From Selenomonadaceae bacterium (GTDB lineage Bacteria; Bacillota; Negativicutes; Selenomonadales; Selenomonadaceae), in NCBI GenBank assembly GCA_017484005.1, contig JAFUTY010000046.1:1-64000 (forward strand): a DNA stretch of 64,000 nucleotides, in the 5' to 3' direction. The notes under the pieces were generated by a model, which worked only from the letters and a program-made list of their open reading frames with translations, searched no databases and was not told the origin of the DNA. Position numbers and translations under genes: made by a program. Below, in pieces: positions 1 to 64,000 of this stretch. Every line of letters starts with the position of its first letter. Position 1 is the stretch's first letter.

Positions 1-1
1 T

Positions 2-445
2 CCATACATCGATCAAATCAAACAAATCAAAAATCCAAAACCAAAAAACGAATCTATCGATGTGAAAGATCTCCTCGCGCAATTTGATCTCGATGCAATT
101 GGAAAATCGGCGATCAAATATTATCAAGCGATTATCGATCTGTCTGAAAAAATCTTCGATCATCTGCAAAAACTCGAGAACATTTCTCCAGACAATGAAT
201 CGATGCAAAAATTGAAACTCACTCCGGAGGATATTCGCGGACAAATTAAAGATATGCAAAATCAAATCGAGAGTCTCAAATCGCAAGCCGATCAATTTTT
301 CATCCAGCTCGATGAAGTCAATAATTCGCCAAATTCGATTCAAAAACTTGCGGAACTTGAATCGATGCCACGTCCAAGTTTTGAATTCATCATTGAAAAT
401 TTCGCGAACATCATAAACAAACTGTCGATTCATAATCTGAAATAA
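2..445 (+). CDS. Partial hypothetical protein (5' end outside window)
   Basis: The reading frame is open from base 2 to the TAA at 443-445, so the gene begins before the window. A GTG at 62 is an in-frame internal candidate but has no Shine-Dalgarno sequence upstream, so I do not take it as the start. The visible part (about 147 residues) is polar and helical, with a stretch rich in Gln, Lys, Glu and Asp around the segment IKDMQNQIESLKSQADQF that looks like a short coiled coil. I recognise no family. A strong terminator follows directly, so this is the last gene of its transcript. Confidence 0.6.
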   Translation, partial: PYIDQIKQIKNPKPKNESIDVKDLLAQFDLDAIGKSAIKYYQAIIDLSEKIFDHLQKLENISPDNESMQKLKLTPEDIRGQIKDMQNQIESLKSQADQFFIQLDEVNNSPNSIQKLAELESMPRPSFEFIIENFANIINKLSIHNLK

Positions 446-4763: not shown

Positions 4764-5723
4764 TTATCCCATGCGTCTATCGCCAAAAGTCACATATCGA
4801 GAGCCGTTTTTGAATGTTCCAGCGGGATCGATCGCTATCCATTTTTGATGATCCGATTCCGCAAGATCCTTCCTGCCCATTGCGTTGTATGTTGACTGGC
4901 GCAGACAATAAGCCATTGCGAAATTTGGTTTCAACTCGATTGCTTTTGTGAAATCAGCCGCGGCAAGATCATATTTTTTGAGCTGGTGATAGACTATCGC
5001 GCGATTGTAAAATGCTTCCGCGAATTTTGGATTGAGCGCAATTGCCTTTGAATAATTCTCGATCGCCTCGTCATATTTCCCCGCGATAAGTGATCTATTT
5101 CTGATGTAATTTCCCGTCGTGAGAAATTTGTTTCCATTCTCTAAAAACTGCATCGCCGCGAAATAATTGTCATTTTTCTGTGCCTCGTCACGAATTTTCT
5201 GACGCTCAATTTCACTCGATGCAGATTCAATCTGAAGTTTTAAAGAATCGAGTTCAGAATTTAATCGATCGCGTTCCTTCTCGACTTCCTTCAATTGACG
5301 AGTTGCTTCATTGAGTTCGCCGCGATCTCGTCCGAGCTGTTCAGAAATATTATCATCGTCAACGAGCACTTTCACATGACATCGAAAGCAAATCGATTTT
5401 CCATCGCTCGAAGTCTGCATGTTGATAATCGGCTCGCCTTTGAGTTGCAAAACATTCGCGGAAATCATTTCGATAACATCTTCTTCAAGAACATGATCTA
5501 CCGTTTTCGATACAGCTTTGACGTAGACGCTCGCCATTTGACTTGCATTTCGCATCGCTTCGATTCGCGCTTTATCTCTTGCGATTGAAAAATTTTCATC
5601 GAGATCGATGCTCGCGTTATATTCTCCATCTGCTTCAATGATTCTTTGCGCCGCATCAGCATTTGGAAGAAGTATCAGCGACAGAATCGTGACTCCCATG
5701 AAAAATTTTTTCGACAGATTCAT
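4764..5723 (-). CDS. Secreted protein: LPP20/FlgT-like N-terminal domain, coiled coil and TPR repeats
   Basis: 319 residues. A signal peptide (MNLSKKFFMGVTILSLILLP, cleavage near ADA-AQ) predicts export. Residues 25-125 form an alpha-beta domain with the pattern ARIEAMRNASQMA and then ICFRCHVKVLVDDD, reminiscent of LPP20/FlgT-N domains. The same domain stands alone in the protein at 63605-64000. A heptad-rich coiled coil covers about 130-175 (RQLKEVEKERDRLNSELDSL). Two to three TPR motifs follow (YNRAIVYHQLKKYDLAAADF). The SD AAGGCTGG precedes the ATG. The role is probably envelope protein-protein interaction, but no function can be assigned. It relates to the TPR pair at the right end. Confidence 0.8.
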   Translation of the reverse strand: MNLSKKFFMGVTILSLILLPNADAAQRIIEADGEYNASIDLDENFSIARDKARIEAMRNASQMASVYVKAVSKTVDHVLEEDVIEMISANVLQLKGEPIINMQTSSDGKSICFRCHVKVLVDDDNISEQLGRDRGELNEATRQLKEVEKERDRLNSELDSLKLQIESASSEIERQKIRDEAQKNDNYFAAMQFLENGNKFLTTGNYIRNRSLIAGKYDEAIENYSKAIALNPKFAEAFYNRAIVYHQLKKYDLAAADFTKAIELKPNFAMAYCLRQSTYNAMGRKDLAESDHQKWIAIDPAGTFKNGSRYVTFGDRRMG

Positions 5724-5863: not shown

Positions 5864-6340
5864 GTGAATCTGAAACAAATTTTATGTTCAACTGCACTCA
5901 TCTCGACTTTGATGATCTCGAGCGCGCAGGCAAATGTTCTCGATGGAGCGACTGAACACAATTGGCATTATTACAAGGCGTTCGAATTTGGATTGAATTG
6001 GAAAGATGCTGAAGCGTTTTGTGAATCGATGGGCGGACATCTTGCGACGGCTGAGAATTCTGACGAGAATGCAGTGATTCAGCAGGTTATCGATGCGGGC
6101 GGAAAAGATGAATATTTCATCGGTGGTTTCAGAGATGATCGCGGAATTTGGAGATGGATTTCATCAGGAATTATAACGGATCAAAATTGGAAATCTGGAT
6201 ATCCTAATTCTTCACCGCTAATGACCATGAAAAAGAAACATGAAGCGCGTTGGACTACATCATATTCTTGGGGAGATGCAAAATATCCTTTCATTTGTGA
6301 GTGGGATGATGAATCCAAAGCTCACGATTCAAATTGGTAA
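5864..6340 (+). CDS. Secreted C-type-lectin-fold protein
   Basis: 158 residues with a clear signal peptide (residues 1-23, ending SSAQA). The rest is one C-type lectin-like domain: HWHYYKAF-like opening strand, WKDAEAFCESMGGHLATAEN, FIGGFRDDRGIWRWISSG, NWKSGYPN and a closing FICEW. Only the outer Cys pair (in AFCES and FICEW) is visible; the inner pair and the EPN/WND calcium-sugar motifs are not intact, so carbohydrate binding is uncertain. The GTG start has GGGAGG at 5851-5856. It is monocistronic between its own promoter and a bidirectional terminator. Such domains in bacteria also occur in formylglycine-like and adhesin contexts. Confidence 0.8.
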   Translation: MNLKQILCSTALISTLMISSAQANVLDGATEHNWHYYKAFEFGLNWKDAEAFCESMGGHLATAENSDENAVIQQVIDAGGKDEYFIGGFRDDRGIWRWISSGIITDQNWKSGYPNSSPLMTMKKKHEARWTTSYSWGDAKYPFICEWDDESKAHDSNW

Positions 6341-6364: not shown

Positions 6365-6406
6365 GAGATCCATCGATCGAAAAATGATCGGTGGATCTCT
6401 TTTTTA
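6365..6406. terminator. Bidirectional terminator
   Basis: Arms AGAGATCCATCGATC (6365-6379) and GATCGGTGGATCTCT (6387-6401) form a 15-bp stem flanked by A7 and T6. It separates the lectin-fold gene from the convergent restriction-modification gene, whose stop codon (6404-6406) lies in the T tract. Confidence 0.9.
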
Positions 6407-9010
6407 TTTTGTGAGATCTTGATACATTTCAAACAGTCTAGAAACGATTTCAGATTCCGAAATATTTTTTGAGAATCCATATGCATCGATAACCGCTCGA
6501 TCATTTTCTTCATGAGCCTTCCGAAGATCTTGAGGCATGAGATTTGGATCATATAATTCAGCGAGACTTGAATTTGAATGATTTGATCTTGCATCGAGGA
6601 TTTTTTGAGCTGTAACTTCGATCTTTGAATTGTGATTCGGAAATGGAAAATTATTATAAACGATCTTTGCAGAGTATCGATATCCATTTCCTAATCTTCC
6701 ACAGACAACTCGAGTCCATGCCATGTGAATTTTCGATGTTAAAATTCCAAAAAGCTCAAGAGTTCCATCGGGAATTATCAAGACTGCATTCGTCGGAATT
6801 GAATTCGAATCGAGAAAATCGATCGGAATATATTTTCGATTGCTCGTTGTAGTGGCTGGGACGAGTATATATCGATCTGGATTGATTTGCTCGCGAAACA
6901 GCCATGGAGTCTCAGCGAGTTTTTGACGATCTGGCGCACCTTTCAATCGATCCGATCGACATTTTTCAACTCGATCATAAACATTTTTCATGGATTTGAT
7001 CTCGGAAGGTTCAGCATCGACAAGCCATAAACAATATCGCGGCGAATTTTGAACGAATTCATCTGCACCGACGAGCCGCTTGATAAATTTTTTAGCTCGC
7101 GGATCTCTTTTCAAAAATTCATCGAGATCCTCCGACTCGATAATCAGATTTCCACCATCTGCCGGACGATTTCCAGTGATCATTTTTGGAACATCTTCGA
7201 TAGATTTTGTCCTCGATTCGACACAAACATTCGGCGCGTCGCGAAGATATCCATTGAGATTTTTCACACGCTTTTCATCGAGCAATTTAATCTCCCGATC
7301 GAATCGCGCAAATCCAACAATTACGCAGAAAACTTGAGCCATCGAATCCCTGTCCGTCGATTCATTTTCCCATCTGAAACTCGACCGCGCAAAATTGATC
7401 TTGACTCCATCAGCGAACATATCTTTCCATAAATATCCAACCTGCTCGCCTTGAGAAATTGAACTTGTCGCAACGAATCCAACTTCAACTTTCGAATCGC
7501 GGATATATTCGGAAGCTTTTTTGAACCATGCACATACATAATCCATTTTTCCAGCCGCTTTATTATTGTCAAAAAACGATTTCATCTCTGATTTTTGATT
7601 CGCGTTTTGCATTGAATATCCGAGATAAGGTGGATTTCCCATGATGTAATCGGCATCTGGAACGACTGATTTCCAATCGATCTCGAGCGAGTTTCCTTCA
7701 ATTATATTGGCATTTCGATTCAGCGAGAGAAAATTCGATCCTCCATTCATCTGATGTTCCGAGATCCAAATTGCTAATTTTGCAACTTGAACCGCCCAAT
7801 CATTGATCTCGATTCCGTAGAAATTCTCGATCGATACGCGAATCGATCCACCAATCTTTTTAATGATTTGATCTTCCAATTTCCGAAGTGAGATGAATGT
7901 TTCAGTTAAAAAATTTCCAGAGCCACATGCAGGATCAAAAAATTTCAGATTTGCAATTTTGTCATGCAATTCATCGAGATTCTCTCCACTTTCAAATTCA
8001 GATTTAAGATCATCGAGGAACAATGGATCAATGATCTTGTGAATATTCTCGATCGATGTGTAATGAATTCCGCCCGCATGTTTTGTCTCTGGATTCATGA
8101 TCGACTCGAAAATTGATCCGAAGATCGTCGGCGAGATTTTTGACCAATTGAAATTCGCTGATGCATTGATCAAATTCCGCAAAATTTCATCGAGATTTGA
8201 ATCATTCGCAACTCTATCGATAATCTCGAGTGTTGAATCTTTGAACAGCTCGCCGTCAACATATGGAAACGCCGCGAGAATATCATCGATCAATTCCGGA
8301 AGATCTTTCATGTCAAAACGCTTGAACAATCTTTCGAATGATCGTCTGAATTCCGCCGGCAAATATTTATATTTCAGTGACGCGAGATAATCGAGAAATT
8401 GACGCTTTTTGAACAGTCCAGAGTCTTCAGCATACAAACAAAATACGAGTTGAATGCAGAATCGATTCAATAAAAACATTTCTGAATCTGAAAGTTTGAT
8501 CGTGAGAAATAGATCTCTGAAATTTTGAATGAGAGATCCAGCCGCGCTCGAGATCAATTCTTCCGAATAAATTTCAGCACGATGTGGATTCGTCAAAAAT
8601 CTCAAATCAAACTCTGCAAGATCTTTCACAGCGACTTTGACAACATTTTTCTCTGGACGTTCAAATTTTAAATTGTAGATCCAAATTTCATCGAAGTTCG
8701 AAGTGATAATCCAATTCGCTTTTTGATCGACAGCTCGAGCATTGTCATATCTTTTCGCTTGCTCGAATGGCGTCAAAATTGATCCATCGGATTGTTTTTC
8801 TGGAGCATCGAGTTTTCTGCCGCGAGATTTCTGCTCGATCAAAATTTTTGTCGTCGAAATCCAAACATCGATATATCCAATCGAATCTCCCAATTGAACT
8901 TGAACCTCAAAATCCAAAACTTCATCGGGATTTGCAATTCCACAATGCTCGCGAATCAGCCATGTCCAATATGGATAGCAATCCTGTTTCTCTCGAAAAA
9001 ATTCCTGCAT
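6404..9010 (-). CDS. Type IIG (MmeI-like) restriction endonuclease-methyltransferase
   Basis: 868-residue single-chain enzyme. The N-terminal PD-(D/E)XK nuclease reads D48 then E59-Q-K61 within YIDVWISTTKILIEQKSRG, close to the D-X9-10-EXK layout of MmeI-type enzymes. A helical linker follows. The N6-adenine methyltransferase has motif I FFDPACGSGNF near 355-365 and motif IV NPPY near 456-459. The C-terminal third (about 600-780) is in the place of a target-recognition domain. A SAM-dependent enzyme of this kind protects and cuts DNA at its own asymmetric site; the site cannot be predicted. GGGAGG precedes the ATG. It lies directly downstream of a tRNA gene, a common insertion position. Alternatives are an orphan or BREX-like methylase, made less likely by the intact nuclease motif. 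Confidence 0.88.
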   Translation of the reverse strand: MQEFFREKQDCYPYWTWLIREHCGIANPDEVLDFEVQVQLGDSIGYIDVWISTTKILIEQKSRGRKLDAPEKQSDGSILTPFEQAKRYDNARAVDQKANWIITSNFDEIWIYNLKFERPEKNVVKVAVKDLAEFDLRFLTNPHRAEIYSEELISSAAGSLIQNFRDLFLTIKLSDSEMFLLNRFCIQLVFCLYAEDSGLFKKRQFLDYLASLKYKYLPAEFRRSFERLFKRFDMKDLPELIDDILAAFPYVDGELFKDSTLEIIDRVANDSNLDEILRNLINASANFNWSKISPTIFGSIFESIMNPETKHAGGIHYTSIENIHKIIDPLFLDDLKSEFESGENLDELHDKIANLKFFDPACGSGNFLTETFISLRKLEDQIIKKIGGSIRVSIENFYGIEINDWAVQVAKLAIWISEHQMNGGSNFLSLNRNANIIEGNSLEIDWKSVVPDADYIMGNPPYLGYSMQNANQKSEMKSFFDNNKAAGKMDYVCAWFKKASEYIRDSKVEVGFVATSSISQGEQVGYLWKDMFADGVKINFARSSFRWENESTDRDSMAQVFCVIVGFARFDREIKLLDEKRVKNLNGYLRDAPNVCVESRTKSIEDVPKMITGNRPADGGNLIIESEDLDEFLKRDPRAKKFIKRLVGADEFVQNSPRYCLWLVDAEPSEIKSMKNVYDRVEKCRSDRLKGAPDRQKLAETPWLFREQINPDRYILVPATTTSNRKYIPIDFLDSNSIPTNAVLIIPDGTLELFGILTSKIHMAWTRVVCGRLGNGYRYSAKIVYNNFPFPNHNSKIEVTAQKILDARSNHSNSSLAELYDPNLMPQDLRKAHEENDRAVIDAYGFSKNISESEIVSRLFEMYQDLTK

Positions 9011-60346: not shown

Positions 60347-61978
60347 CTATTTTTGTTGAAGTCGATTGAGATTATTGCGAGCGTCTTCATCGTTTGGATC
60401 TAATTCGAGAGCTTTTTGATAATCGGCGATTGCTTGAATTATATCTCCTCGTTCGGAGTAAGCATCTCCACGAGCGTTATATCCATTTGGATCGTTCGGC
60501 ATTAATTTTATGTATCGAGCGTAATCTTCAATCGCTTTATTGAGTTTCCCTTGATCAAGATATACTTTTCCACGGTGCAAATATGTTTCGGCAAAATTTT
60601 GATCAAGATCAATTGCTTTAGTGAAGTCAGCGATTGCTTGAACTTGATTGCCTTGACTACTATAAGCAAGTCCTCGATTCATATACAATAATGGTTCTTG
60701 TGGATTGATAGCGATCGCTGTATTACAATCTTTGATCGCTTGATCCAGATTTCCTTGTTCGTAATATGCAAAGCCGCGATTACCATAAGCTTCAACATAT
60801 TTTGGATTGATCTCGATTGCCTCTGTCCAATCAGAAATTGCAAGATTTGGATTTCCTTGTTCATAGTAAACAATTCCTCGATCATAGAAGTGTTCAGGCG
60901 TATTGGGATCGAGTTCAATCGCTTTATTAAAATCCACCATCGCTTGCGTATTATTATCAAGCATGCAATATAATAATCCGCGATTGTAATATGCTGTTGC
61001 TAAATTCGGATCTATAGTAATTGCTTTGTTGTAATCACTCATCGCTTGCGTACTATTTCCCTGCTTTTTGTATGCAAGTCCTCGATTGTTATATGCAGCA
61101 TAGTAATTTGGATTGATCTCAATTGCCTTGTTATAATCTCGAATCGCTTGATCTAGATTTCCTTGATCATCGTATGCGAGTCCTCGATTGTAATATGCAA
61201 CTGCGTTGTTCGGATCGAGTTCAATTGCCTTGTTATAATCAGACATCGCTTGATTCAGATTTCCTTGATCAGAATATGCATTTCCACGATTGTTATATGC
61301 CCAAGAATATTTTGGATTGATTTTCAAAGCTTTTTTATATTCCTCAATTGCTTCATCATACATTTTCGCATAAGCATATCGATTTCCGGACTCGAGATAT
61401 TGTCCCGCAGTGAATTCTGAATCATTTTTCTCGATTTGCTCACGAATTTTTTGACGCTCAACCGGATCTTTTGTTTCGATATATTGTTTCTGAAGTTTGT
61501 CATATTCTTCTTCAGTCAACTTTCGACGTTCTTCAAATCCTTTATTGTTCTGAACTGATTGCTCGAGATGTTTACGATCTTTGAATGCATCAATTACATT
61601 CGAATCATCAACCATCGCTTGTAATTTGCAGGTGATTAAAACTCCCGCACCATTCCCAATTTGATCAACTTTATATTCCGGTTTTCCACTCACTTCAGCT
61701 TTATTCGCAAGAATTGTGGTGATTTCATCTTCCGTTGCGATCAAATCATGAGATTCTGTAACGCTATGGACAAAGATTCTCGCCTTGAGTCTAGCCGATC
61801 GAAGAGCTTTTTCCTTTGCACGTTCATATGCAAGAGTCAAATCGCCTTTGAAATCTTCGCCAACTACCAATTCCCCAGTTCCCTCGAACAGTTGCGATTC
61901 AGTTGACGCCGTTGAAAATAGAAGTGTTGGAATGAGCAATGATCCGAGCATGATTGTTTTCCAGTGTTTCTTAATCAT
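60347..61978 (-). CDS. Secreted TPR-repeat protein (paralogue 2)
   Basis: 543 residues from ATG at 61978-61976, eight bases after AAGGAGG; the frame extends 41 codons further upstream, but without signals. Signal peptide MIKKHWKTIMLGSLLIPTLL, cleaved near STA-ST. Residues about 30-135 are the LPP20/FlgT-like domain (AYERAKEKALRSARLKARIF, then LITCKLQAMVDDSNV). A charged helix with LTEEEYDKLQKQYIETKDP follows, then about ten TPR units with the AYYNRGLAYDDQGN pattern. Likely a periplasmic or outer-membrane-associated scaffold. The first 200 residues are almost identical to the next paralogue. Confidence 0.85.
   Translation of the reverse strand: MIKKHWKTIMLGSLLIPTLLFSTASTESQLFEGTGELVVGEDFKGDLTLAYERAKEKALRSARLKARIFVHSVTESHDLIATEDEITTILANKAEVSGKPEYKVDQIGNGAGVLITCKLQAMVDDSNVIDAFKDRKHLEQSVQNNKGFEERRKLTEEEYDKLQKQYIETKDPVERQKIREQIEKNDSEFTAGQYLESGNRYAYAKMYDEAIEEYKKALKINPKYSWAYNNRGNAYSDQGNLNQAMSDYNKAIELDPNNAVAYYNRGLAYDDQGNLDQAIRDYNKAIEINPNYYAAYNNRGLAYKKQGNSTQAMSDYNKAITIDPNLATAYYNRGLLYCMLDNNTQAMVDFNKAIELDPNTPEHFYDRGIVYYEQGNPNLAISDWTEAIEINPKYVEAYGNRGFAYYEQGNLDQAIKDCNTAIAINPQEPLLYMNRGLAYSSQGNQVQAIADFTKAIDLDQNFAETYLHRGKVYLDQGKLNKAIEDYARYIKLMPNDPNGYNARGDAYSERGDIIQAIADYQKALELDPNDEDARNNLNRLQQK
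61400..61920. repeat. Tandem-duplicated segment, copy A
   Basis: Encodes the N-terminal domain and helix of paralogue 2. It aligns base for base by eye at roughly nine in ten positions with 63010-63525, from the shared CGGATCTTT region to AACAGTTGCGATTCAGTTGACG. Approximate ends. Confidence 0.7.
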
Positions 61979-62005
61979 ATAAACTGCCTCCTTGAATTTT
62001 GAAAG

Positions 62006-62038
62006 AAGATCGACACTGGCGATATCAGTGCCGATCTT
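62006..62038. terminator. Intergenic hairpin between TPR genes
   Basis: AAGATCGACACTG (62006-62018) and CAGTGCCGATCTT (62026-62038), 12 of 13 pairs. The T run is on the plus strand side; on the minus strand, where the genes lie, only CTTTC follows. It may attenuate or protect the transcript. Confidence 0.55.
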
Positions 62039-62057
62039 TTTCGGTTGAGTGAATAAT

Positions 62058-63587
62058 TTATCTTGATCGAAGTCGATTGAGATTTTCGCGAGTTTCTTCA
62101 TCTTTTGGATCTAATTCGAGGACTTTTTTATAATCTGCGATTGCTTCAGATTTTTTGCCGAGTTTTTCATATGCTTTTCCACGATTGTAATATGCATCTG
62201 CGTCATTCGGAGCTATCTCAATCGCTTTTGTCCAATCAGAAATTGCTTGGTCTATATTTCCTTGATTGAAGTATGCAATTCCTCGATTGTAGTACGCTTT
62301 CTTTTTTTGAGGATCGATCTCAATTGCTCTTGTCCAATCAGAAATTGCTTGATTCCAATTATTTTGATACGCATATGCAAGTCCGCGATTATAGTAAACA
62401 GATGCGTCATTGGGATTGATCTCGATCGCTTTGTTATAATTTTTAATCGCTTGATTTAGATTTCCTTGATCTTTGTATAAAACTCCTCGATTGTAATACG
62501 CAGACGCTAAATTCGGATTGATCTTAAGTGCTTTGTTATAATCCTCGATTGCTTGATCTAGATTTCCTTTATCAGAGTATGTAGCTCCGCGATTGCTATA
62601 TGCTTCTGCATCATTTGGATCGAGCTCAATTGCCTTGTTAAAATCCTTGATTGCTTGATCTAGATCTCCTTGTGTCTCGTACAAAATTCCGCGATTATTG
62701 TATGCTAACGCGTTATTCTGATCGAGTTCAATTGCTTTATTGTAATCTCGAATTGCTTGATTTAGATCTCCTTGTTCATCATACACAAGTCCGCGATTGT
62801 TATATGCCATTGAATATTTTGGATTTAACTCAATTGCCCTGTTGAAATCAAGAATTGCTTGATCCAATTTTTCTTGCTTGGAATACGCAATTCCTCGATT
62901 GTTGTAGGTTTCTGCATGTACTTCGAGTTTCAATGACTTATTATATTCCGAAATTGCTTCTTCATACATTTTTGCATAATAGAAACGATTTCCAGATTCG
63001 AAATATTGTTCCGCAGTGAATTCTGAATCGTTCTTCTTGATTTGTTCACGGATTTTTTGACGCTCAACCGGATCTTTCGTTTCGATGTATCTCTTCTGAA
63101 GTTTGTCATATTCTTCTTCAGTCAATTTTCGACGCGATTCGAATTCTTTGTTGCTTTGAACCGATTGCTCGAGATGTTTACGATCCTTGAATGCCTCAAT
63201 AACATTCGAATCATCCACAATCGCTTGCAATTTGCATGTTATTAAAACTCCCGCGCCATTCCCAATTTGATCAACTTTATATTCCGGTTTTCCACTAACT
63301 TCCGCTCTATTCGCAAGAATTGTTGTGATTTCATCTTCCGTAGCGATCAAATCATGAGATTCCGTTACGCTGTGGACAAAGATTCTCGCCTTGAGTCTAG
63401 CCGATCGAAGAGCTTTTTCCTTTGCACGTTCATATGCAAGCGTCAAATCGCCTTTGAAATCCTCGCCAACTACCAATTCCCCAGTTCCCTCAAACAATTG
63501 AGATTCAGTTGACGCGTCCGACATGAAAAATATCGACGGAATCAATGTTGCGCCGATGATCAATGTTTTTAATTTTTTACGATTCAT
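62058..63587 (-). CDS. Secreted TPR-repeat protein (paralogue 1)
   Basis: 509 residues from ATG at 63587-63585, eight bases after AAGGAG. Signal peptide MNRKKLKTLIIGATLIPSIF, cleaved near SDA-ST. The N-terminal domain (SQLFEGTGELVVGEDFKGDL onwards) is nearly identical to paralogue 2. About nine TPR units follow, each near AYYNRGIAYFNQGNIDQAIS. The repeat arrays differ in number and detail between paralogues, whereas the N-terminal domain does not, suggesting recent duplication plus repeat turnover. Function unknown. Confidence 0.85.
   Translation of the reverse strand: MNRKKLKTLIIGATLIPSIFFMSDASTESQLFEGTGELVVGEDFKGDLTLAYERAKEKALRSARLKARIFVHSVTESHDLIATEDEITTILANRAEVSGKPEYKVDQIGNGAGVLITCKLQAIVDDSNVIEAFKDRKHLEQSVQSNKEFESRRKLTEEEYDKLQKRYIETKDPVERQKIREQIKKNDSEFTAEQYFESGNRFYYAKMYEEAISEYNKSLKLEVHAETYNNRGIAYSKQEKLDQAILDFNRAIELNPKYSMAYNNRGLVYDEQGDLNQAIRDYNKAIELDQNNALAYNNRGILYETQGDLDQAIKDFNKAIELDPNDAEAYSNRGATYSDKGNLDQAIEDYNKALKINPNLASAYYNRGVLYKDQGNLNQAIKNYNKAIEINPNDASVYYNRGLAYAYQNNWNQAISDWTRAIEIDPQKKKAYYNRGIAYFNQGNIDQAISDWTKAIEIAPNDADAYYNRGKAYEKLGKKSEAIADYKKVLELDPKDEETRENLNRLRSR
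63010..63525. repeat. Tandem-duplicated segment, copy B
   Basis: Counterpart of 61400-61920, about 1.6 kb away, same orientation. Approximate ends. Confidence 0.7.
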
Positions 63588-63604
63588 GAATTTTTCTCCT
63601 TCCA

Positions 63605-64000
63605 TCATCGATTCGAATTTTCATCATCGTGAGATTTCTCCTCATCGCGAAGACGTTCCTCCACTTCATCAGTATCAATGGAAACTTTCACATGACACTG
63701 ATAGCAGATTTCATCGCCCTCGTATGAAATTGAATATCTTGGTTCTTCGACAAGATGAATCACTTCATTCACGATCATTCGAATTTCGTCCCGTGTTAGC
63801 ATATGATCTCGCGATTCTAATATTCTTTGAATACGAGGACTTGCCATTCTACTCGCCTCGCGCAGTGCCTGCTCCAAAGATTTTTCCTTCGCAATTGAAA
63901 AATCTCCCTCGCCCTCGACGATGAAATAATATCCATCCGCCTCGATGATGATTTCTTCCGCTGATACTTCAGTTGACTGGAAAATCGTCGCCATGAAACA
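63605..64000 (-). CDS. Exported LPP20/FlgT-like domain protein, 5' end cut by window
   Basis: At least 131 residues; the frame is open to the window edge. An ATG at 63994-63992 lies only six bases from the edge, and the part after it (ATIFQSTEVSA) looks like the end of a signal peptide, so the true start is probably outside. The single domain has IIIEADGYYFIVEGEGDFSI, SLEQALREASRMASP and ICYQCHVKVSIDTDEVEERL, matching residues 25-125 of the protein at 4764-5723. It has no TPR units. It is the first visible gene of the minus-strand run. Confidence 0.75.
   Translation of the reverse strand, partial: CFMATIFQSTEVSAEEIIIEADGYYFIVEGEGDFSIAKEKSLEQALREASRMASPRIQRILESRDHMLTRDEIRMIVNEVIHLVEEPRYSISYEGDEICYQCHVKVSIDTDEVEERLRDEEKSHDDENSNR

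Follow-up and report, generated by a model that had tools for sequence, protein, structure and literature searches.

Exported proteins that join an SHS2-fold head to TPR arrays in gut Selenomonadaceae: a lineage-specific expansion and candidate periplasmic scaffold

SHS2-fold proteins (e.g., Lpp20, FlgP, and FlgT) and TPR spokes have mostly been met as distinct components of the flagellum or the envelope, and the envelope biology of diderm Firmicutes in general is poorly known. An SHS2-like fold has been described for FlgP, Lpp20, FlgT, and dodecin (PMC12222027). In the Campylobacter motor, FlgP builds the basal disk and PflA and PflB the spokes, so that the two kinds of module occur as separate proteins, and a beta-hairpin insert between the SHS2 helix and the second strand is the criterion for an FlgP-type ring former (PMC12222027). 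Here we describe a family that, by contrast, carries both modules in one polypeptide; in gut Selenomonadaceae, SHS2 heads and TPRs occur as fusions that have been multiplied and are maintained by recombination specific to the heads. The analysis started from a window of 64,000 bp (bases 1-64000 of the 72,519 bp contig C48) in a Selenomonadaceae genome of 2.44 Mb and 72 contigs (G000). Literature searches retrieved no paper on this head-TPR family in Negativicutes, in agreement with the first-pass annotation, which knew of no assigned function.

Four family genes, all on the minus strand, lie in the window, as judged by open reading frames and TPR counts, with domain limits taken from alignment. 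C48_1 (4764-5723) encodes an exported SHS2-fold (FlgT_N/LPP20-like) domain (5304-5651) followed by a helical spacer and three TPRs. C48_2 (60347-62101), which probably starts at an internal ATG at 61978 (MIKKHW...), combines the domain (61556-61900, inside a tract nearly identical to C48_3) with a helical spacer and ten TPRs (60359-61400, 102-bp period in the DNA), and C48_3 (62058-63608; 516 aa) combines it (63162-63506) with a helical hairpin and nine TPRs (62105-62966, 102/204-bp period). C48_4 (63605-64000), which shares 4 bp with the start of C48_3 and itself starts beyond the window at contig position 64027, encodes a domain-only secreted protein. The last three genes are the promoter-distal end of a nine-gene minus-strand run (contig positions 60347-71962) just before ispG, in which eight of the nine genes carry an exported N-terminal domain of this kind; the cluster is hence larger than the window shows. 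The remaining gene (66838-67701) is LPP20-like, its product being homologous along most of its sequence (33% identity over 221 residues) to an LPP20-like protein of locus C5 whose own match to Pfam LPP20 falls just under the cut-off. Between 66838 and 66767 lies a strong terminator-like hairpin, so that the run probably comprises two transcription units. A further run of exported genes in the same genome (L124, C64:5000-24000) includes several LPP20/FlgT_N-like and CsgG-like proteins and is apparently one large envelope cluster.

The first-pass annotation had proposed that the three tandem genes and the gene at 4764-5723 share one exported N-terminal domain, LPP20-like in character, within a modular family of differing architectures, and each of these proposals was borne out. 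The four domains are homologous (matches to the domain-only protein at E 1.8e-8 to 5.5e-20, the latter for C48_1), have common invariant residues in the alignment, and have one predicted fold. Genome-wide, 23 copies of the domain were found at E <= 1e-6 and 27 at E <= 1e-3, and the family comprises 22 exported proteins on nine contigs, with TPR counts of 18, 10, 9, 9, 8, 8, 8, 7, 6, 6, 6, 5, 5, 3, 3, 3, 2, and 0. Signal peptides were judged by eye, and none of the 22 proteins has a lipobox. The TPR repeats pass the Pfam cut-off (TPR_1, 316-319 bits, 8-10 stretches, 34-residue repeats). The explanation that we favor, with a probability of about 0.5, is that the family forms a Sec-exported, non-lipidated periplasmic scaffold, each protein consisting of an SHS2 head, usually a spacer in the form of a two-helix hairpin, and a TPR superhelix of 0 to 18 repeats; the contacts that it supposes between heads, between heads and LPP20, and between arms and partners are inferred.

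Structure prediction placed the head in the SHS2 fold. In the AlphaFold model of C48_4 (pLDDT 85.6), a strand, a long helix, a short helix, and two strands are followed by a C-terminal helix, and the full-length model of C48_3 (mean pLDDT 92.7) shows the SHS2 head, the hairpin (helices 111-144 and 148-179), and then nine TPRs that form a paired-helix solenoid. Among solved structures, the best fold matches were Lpp20 (Z 8.8), Tip-alpha (7.9-8.2), FlgT (6.0), and dodecins (5.2-5.8), with further matches to HP1454 and a SIMPL-like protein. The match to the Helicobacter pylori Lpp20 structure 5ok8 (Foldseek probability 0.99, rmsd 3.3, 92 residues aligned) supports the LPP20-like designation at the level of fold; the sequences, however, stay below Pfam cut-offs. 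For LPP20 (PF02169), the lipoprotein family of H. pylori Lpp20, only two of 22 members matched at E < 1 (best 0.016), and the gathering score was not reached; the family also differs from Lpp20 by the absent lipobox, and Lpp20 itself has no TPR arm. The nearest Pfam profile is the N-terminal domain of Vibrio FlgT (FlgT_N, PF16548), with weak matches in 16 of 22 members (best E 1.6e-5) and, in two members checked singly, a score of 17 bits (17.2 in C48_1) against a gathering cut-off of 28.8; the middle and C-terminal domains of FlgT are not present, the parts after the head matching TPR families instead. A profile search of the sequences of solved structures retrieved no relative, its best matches being chance ones. 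H. pylori Tip-alpha (HP0596) is likewise a secreted protein of the same fold, but its identity to the family is 11-12%, it has no TPR arm, and there is no evidence of a common activity. Both models have a short helix in place of the FlgP-type beta-hairpin insert, and FlgP-type rings are thus not predicted for this family.

The family is a lineage-specific expansion, as had been suggested from the window. Domain counts range from 0 to 23 in 40 relatives, compared with 27 in this genome; within the genus the range is 0 to 27 (two members at 99% completeness have none), while other Selenomonadaceae genera that carry the family mostly have 1-5 copies (once 10), and other Negativicutes families have 1-2. 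Expansion occurred independently in several species. A branch of the domain tree with support 79 has 16 of this genome's domains on one side, and members such as C5_1 and C56_2/C1_1 group with other species. A search of annotated contigs with a narrow alignment gave six loci, all from Selenomonadaceae or Selenomonadales and five of them from ruminants.

The same distribution bears on the possibility that these proteins are accessories of the flagellar motor, in which SHS2 heads would form disks and TPR arms would be the spokes, like FlgP and PflA/PflB in the Campylobacter motor. While the fold is that of FlgP, FlgT, and Lpp20 (PMC12222027), and FliG is present in 41 of 43 Negativicutes genomes with the family as compared to 60 of 157 without it, this class-wide association is confounded by ancestry and vanishes within Selenomonadaceae (27/29 vs. 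14/18, p 0.18). Moreover, two genomes of one genus (G052 and G074, 99-100% complete) carry 3-4 copies without FliG, which led us to reject a strictly flagellar family; the flagellated G005 (99% complete) has zero copies; and no flagellar operon adjoins the genes examined, the exceptions being chemotaxis-like genes at a few loci and a flagellar hook-like gene beside one of the domain-only genes in G016. Because of the missing association within Selenomonadaceae and the carriers without FliG, we consider a dedicated flagellar role rather unlikely; a part-time role is possible. A CheV-like chemotaxis protein (named by eye) adjoins a family locus in two species (L059:4083-5060 and L125:12667-13635).

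A conserved neighbor is an LPP20 gene. One clade of the domain tree (support 96) holds C5_1 and its counterparts from six further species; every one of them has an LPP20-type gene as its direct neighbor, so that an LPP20 gene lies beside an FlgT_N-TPR orthologue in seven species; an LPP20 gene and a family member are also neighbors in another Negativicutes family (G033). The pair looks like the ancestral two-gene unit. In G014, a same-strand run (L122:4359-10902, contig C23) contains, besides LPP20-like, LPP20, and FlgT_N-TPR genes, those for a predicted CHASE2-type sensor/cyclase, a metallo-hydrolase, and a GAF protein, names other than those of the LPP20 and FlgT_N genes being given by eye only. 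A second arrangement, a domain-only gene directly before a long-array gene, was found at six loci in five species, with spacing from a 4 bp overlap to a gap of about 33 bp. The short domain-only genes of three species are orthologous (56-61% identity). C48_4 was rejected as an orthologue of such genes in other species; its nearest relatives are paralogues in its own genome, and the arrangement of domain-only and long-array genes has therefore arisen at least twice.

Heads and arrays of paralogues differ in how far they have diverged. The first-pass annotation had noted that the N-terminal coding DNA of the pair at 61.4 kb and 63.0 kb is almost unchanged while the arrays differ, and alignment and dN/dS confirmed that this contrast is real: C48_2 and C48_3 are 92-97% identical in DNA over the domain, while the best matches reach 59-87% in the arrays and the signal peptides are 53% identical. 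Synonymous divergence (dS) follows the same pattern, being 0.22-0.38 for codons 30-120, 1.17 for the signal peptide, and mostly between 0.8 and 2 for the arrays; array values carry the caveat that repeats may be out of register, from which the signal peptide is free. The signal peptides and arrays thus are old, and the view that the genes were recently amplified, drawn from the identity of their N-termini, is not supported. Within codons 30-150, 22 synonymous and five non-synonymous changes separate the two genes, indicating strong purifying selection in the heads. Moreover, the nearest paralogue of C48_2 switches along the gene (permutation p at most 5e-5): the signal peptide is nearest to C48_10 (84%, compared with 53% to C48_3), the head to C48_3 (92-97%), the spacer to C48_5 (96%), and the region near the C-terminus again to C48_10 (83% vs. 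69%). C48_2 accordingly is a mosaic of C48_10, C48_3, and C48_5. A similar contrast of similar heads and diverged arrays was found for C23_1 and C69_1, which lie on different contigs, and for a tandem pair in species G013, which is 100% identical in nucleotides over codons 30-150 and then 54-91% over the arrays (about 62% protein identity), although the assembly behind this pair is fragmented into short contigs (here one of 6.6 kb). Because the signal peptides and arrays of the same pair are old and the nearest neighbor switches, the near-identical N-termini are local recombination tracts.

Comparison across species supports old, heritable arms. Arrays of 12 TPRs align almost free of gaps (427-429 positions) and are 53-65% identical, as compared to 64-69% in the head, and one G013 gene has an array marginally more similar to the G001 array (65%) than to the array of its own paralogue (62%). 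In the two orthologous groups tested, with one genome per species, arrays evolve about as fast as the head or somewhat faster. That an array can be nearer to another species than to a paralogue, together with the constant lengths, shows that the arms are old and that the heads have been overwritten by recombination. The proposal of variable arrays consequently holds between paralogues (0-18 TPRs) and fails across species, where both orthologous groups keep their length. No sign of positive selection on the arrays was found, with dN/dS < 1 in nearly all windows, at dS near saturation.

These observations also weigh on the proposal that the proteins, once exported, act on host surfaces or on other cells, their arrays varying so as to fit targets or to escape recognition. 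Export signals, the range of 0 to 18 TPRs, and C-type-lectin-like exported proteins encoded beside members are consistent with such a role; one lectin-like gene (window 5864-6340, plus strand; Lectin_C E 5e-11) is divergent from a family member, and a gene for a protein that looks similar, as judged by sequence, directly follows a family pair in G013 (L148:3405-4412, plus strand). No type-specific secretion signal was seen, however, the arrays hold length and register across species in the two groups tested, positive selection left no sign, and the clustering on one strand points to expression together and not by turns, so that we regard this role as improbable. Across 114 repeats, entropy was highest at canonical TPR positions 5, 9, 12, 13, and 34, closely followed by one position of helix B that faces outward. 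A variability pattern of this kind is generic to TPRs and does not point to diversifying selection. The first five all belong to the concave ligand-binding positions described by Magliery and Regan (PMC1261162), and the pattern fits binding arms.

A further question is whether the family reflects mostly neutral amplification and recombination of paralogues in a genome prone to gene-family expansion. About a dozen full-length MmeI-like restriction-modification genes and additional fragments, as well as the tandem 102-bp repeats in the array DNA, which favor unequal exchange, agree with this possibility, and since MmeI-like and other unrelated genes are also amplified in this genome, expansion alone need not mean adaptation. 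By contrast, purifying selection in the heads is strong, reading frames are intact in nearly all matches listed from this genome and its relatives, several species have expanded the family independently, and the LPP20 neighbor is conserved; neutral amplification as the main explanation is thus unlikely.

Under the periplasmic scaffold that we favor, the head would serve as a common docking or oligomerization module that probably touches the LPP20 partner or the outer membrane, the TPR arms would use their concave faces to recruit different partners, domain-only proteins would dilute or cap the assembly, and homogenization would keep all heads compatible in one structure. We tentatively suggest, as a possibility that goes beyond the scaffold itself, an undescribed combinatorial system for organizing the periplasm, in which some 20 proteins would share a gene-converted docking head, have stable TPR arms of their own, and be interspersed with domain-only spacers. 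If the heads do assemble together, the family would represent a natural plug-and-arm system that organizes a diderm Firmicute envelope, and the pattern of gene conversion predicts that heads are interchangeable and arms are not.

Two features of the surrounding DNA are recorded here. The end of contig C48 (72394-72519) is an exact 126-bp copy of its start (window 1-126), a gene reads through the junction (236 aa), and the contig thus closes on itself at 72.4 kb; it carries core genes (argCJBDFGH, dxs, ispG, recN, and relA/spoT; gene names assigned by eye) but lacks an obvious replication gene, such an end-to-start copy is absent from nine other contigs tested, and the closure may represent a circle, a tandem duplication, or an assembly loop. 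The MmeI-like (type IIG/IIL) gene of the window (6404-9010, minus strand) belongs to a striking expansion for one 2.4 Mb genome, with full-length paralogues at 57-72% identity and about ten partial matches, several of them at contig ends; paralogues lie at about 11 other places, on C64, C69, C52, C40, C39, C6, C22, C42, C33, C61, and others.
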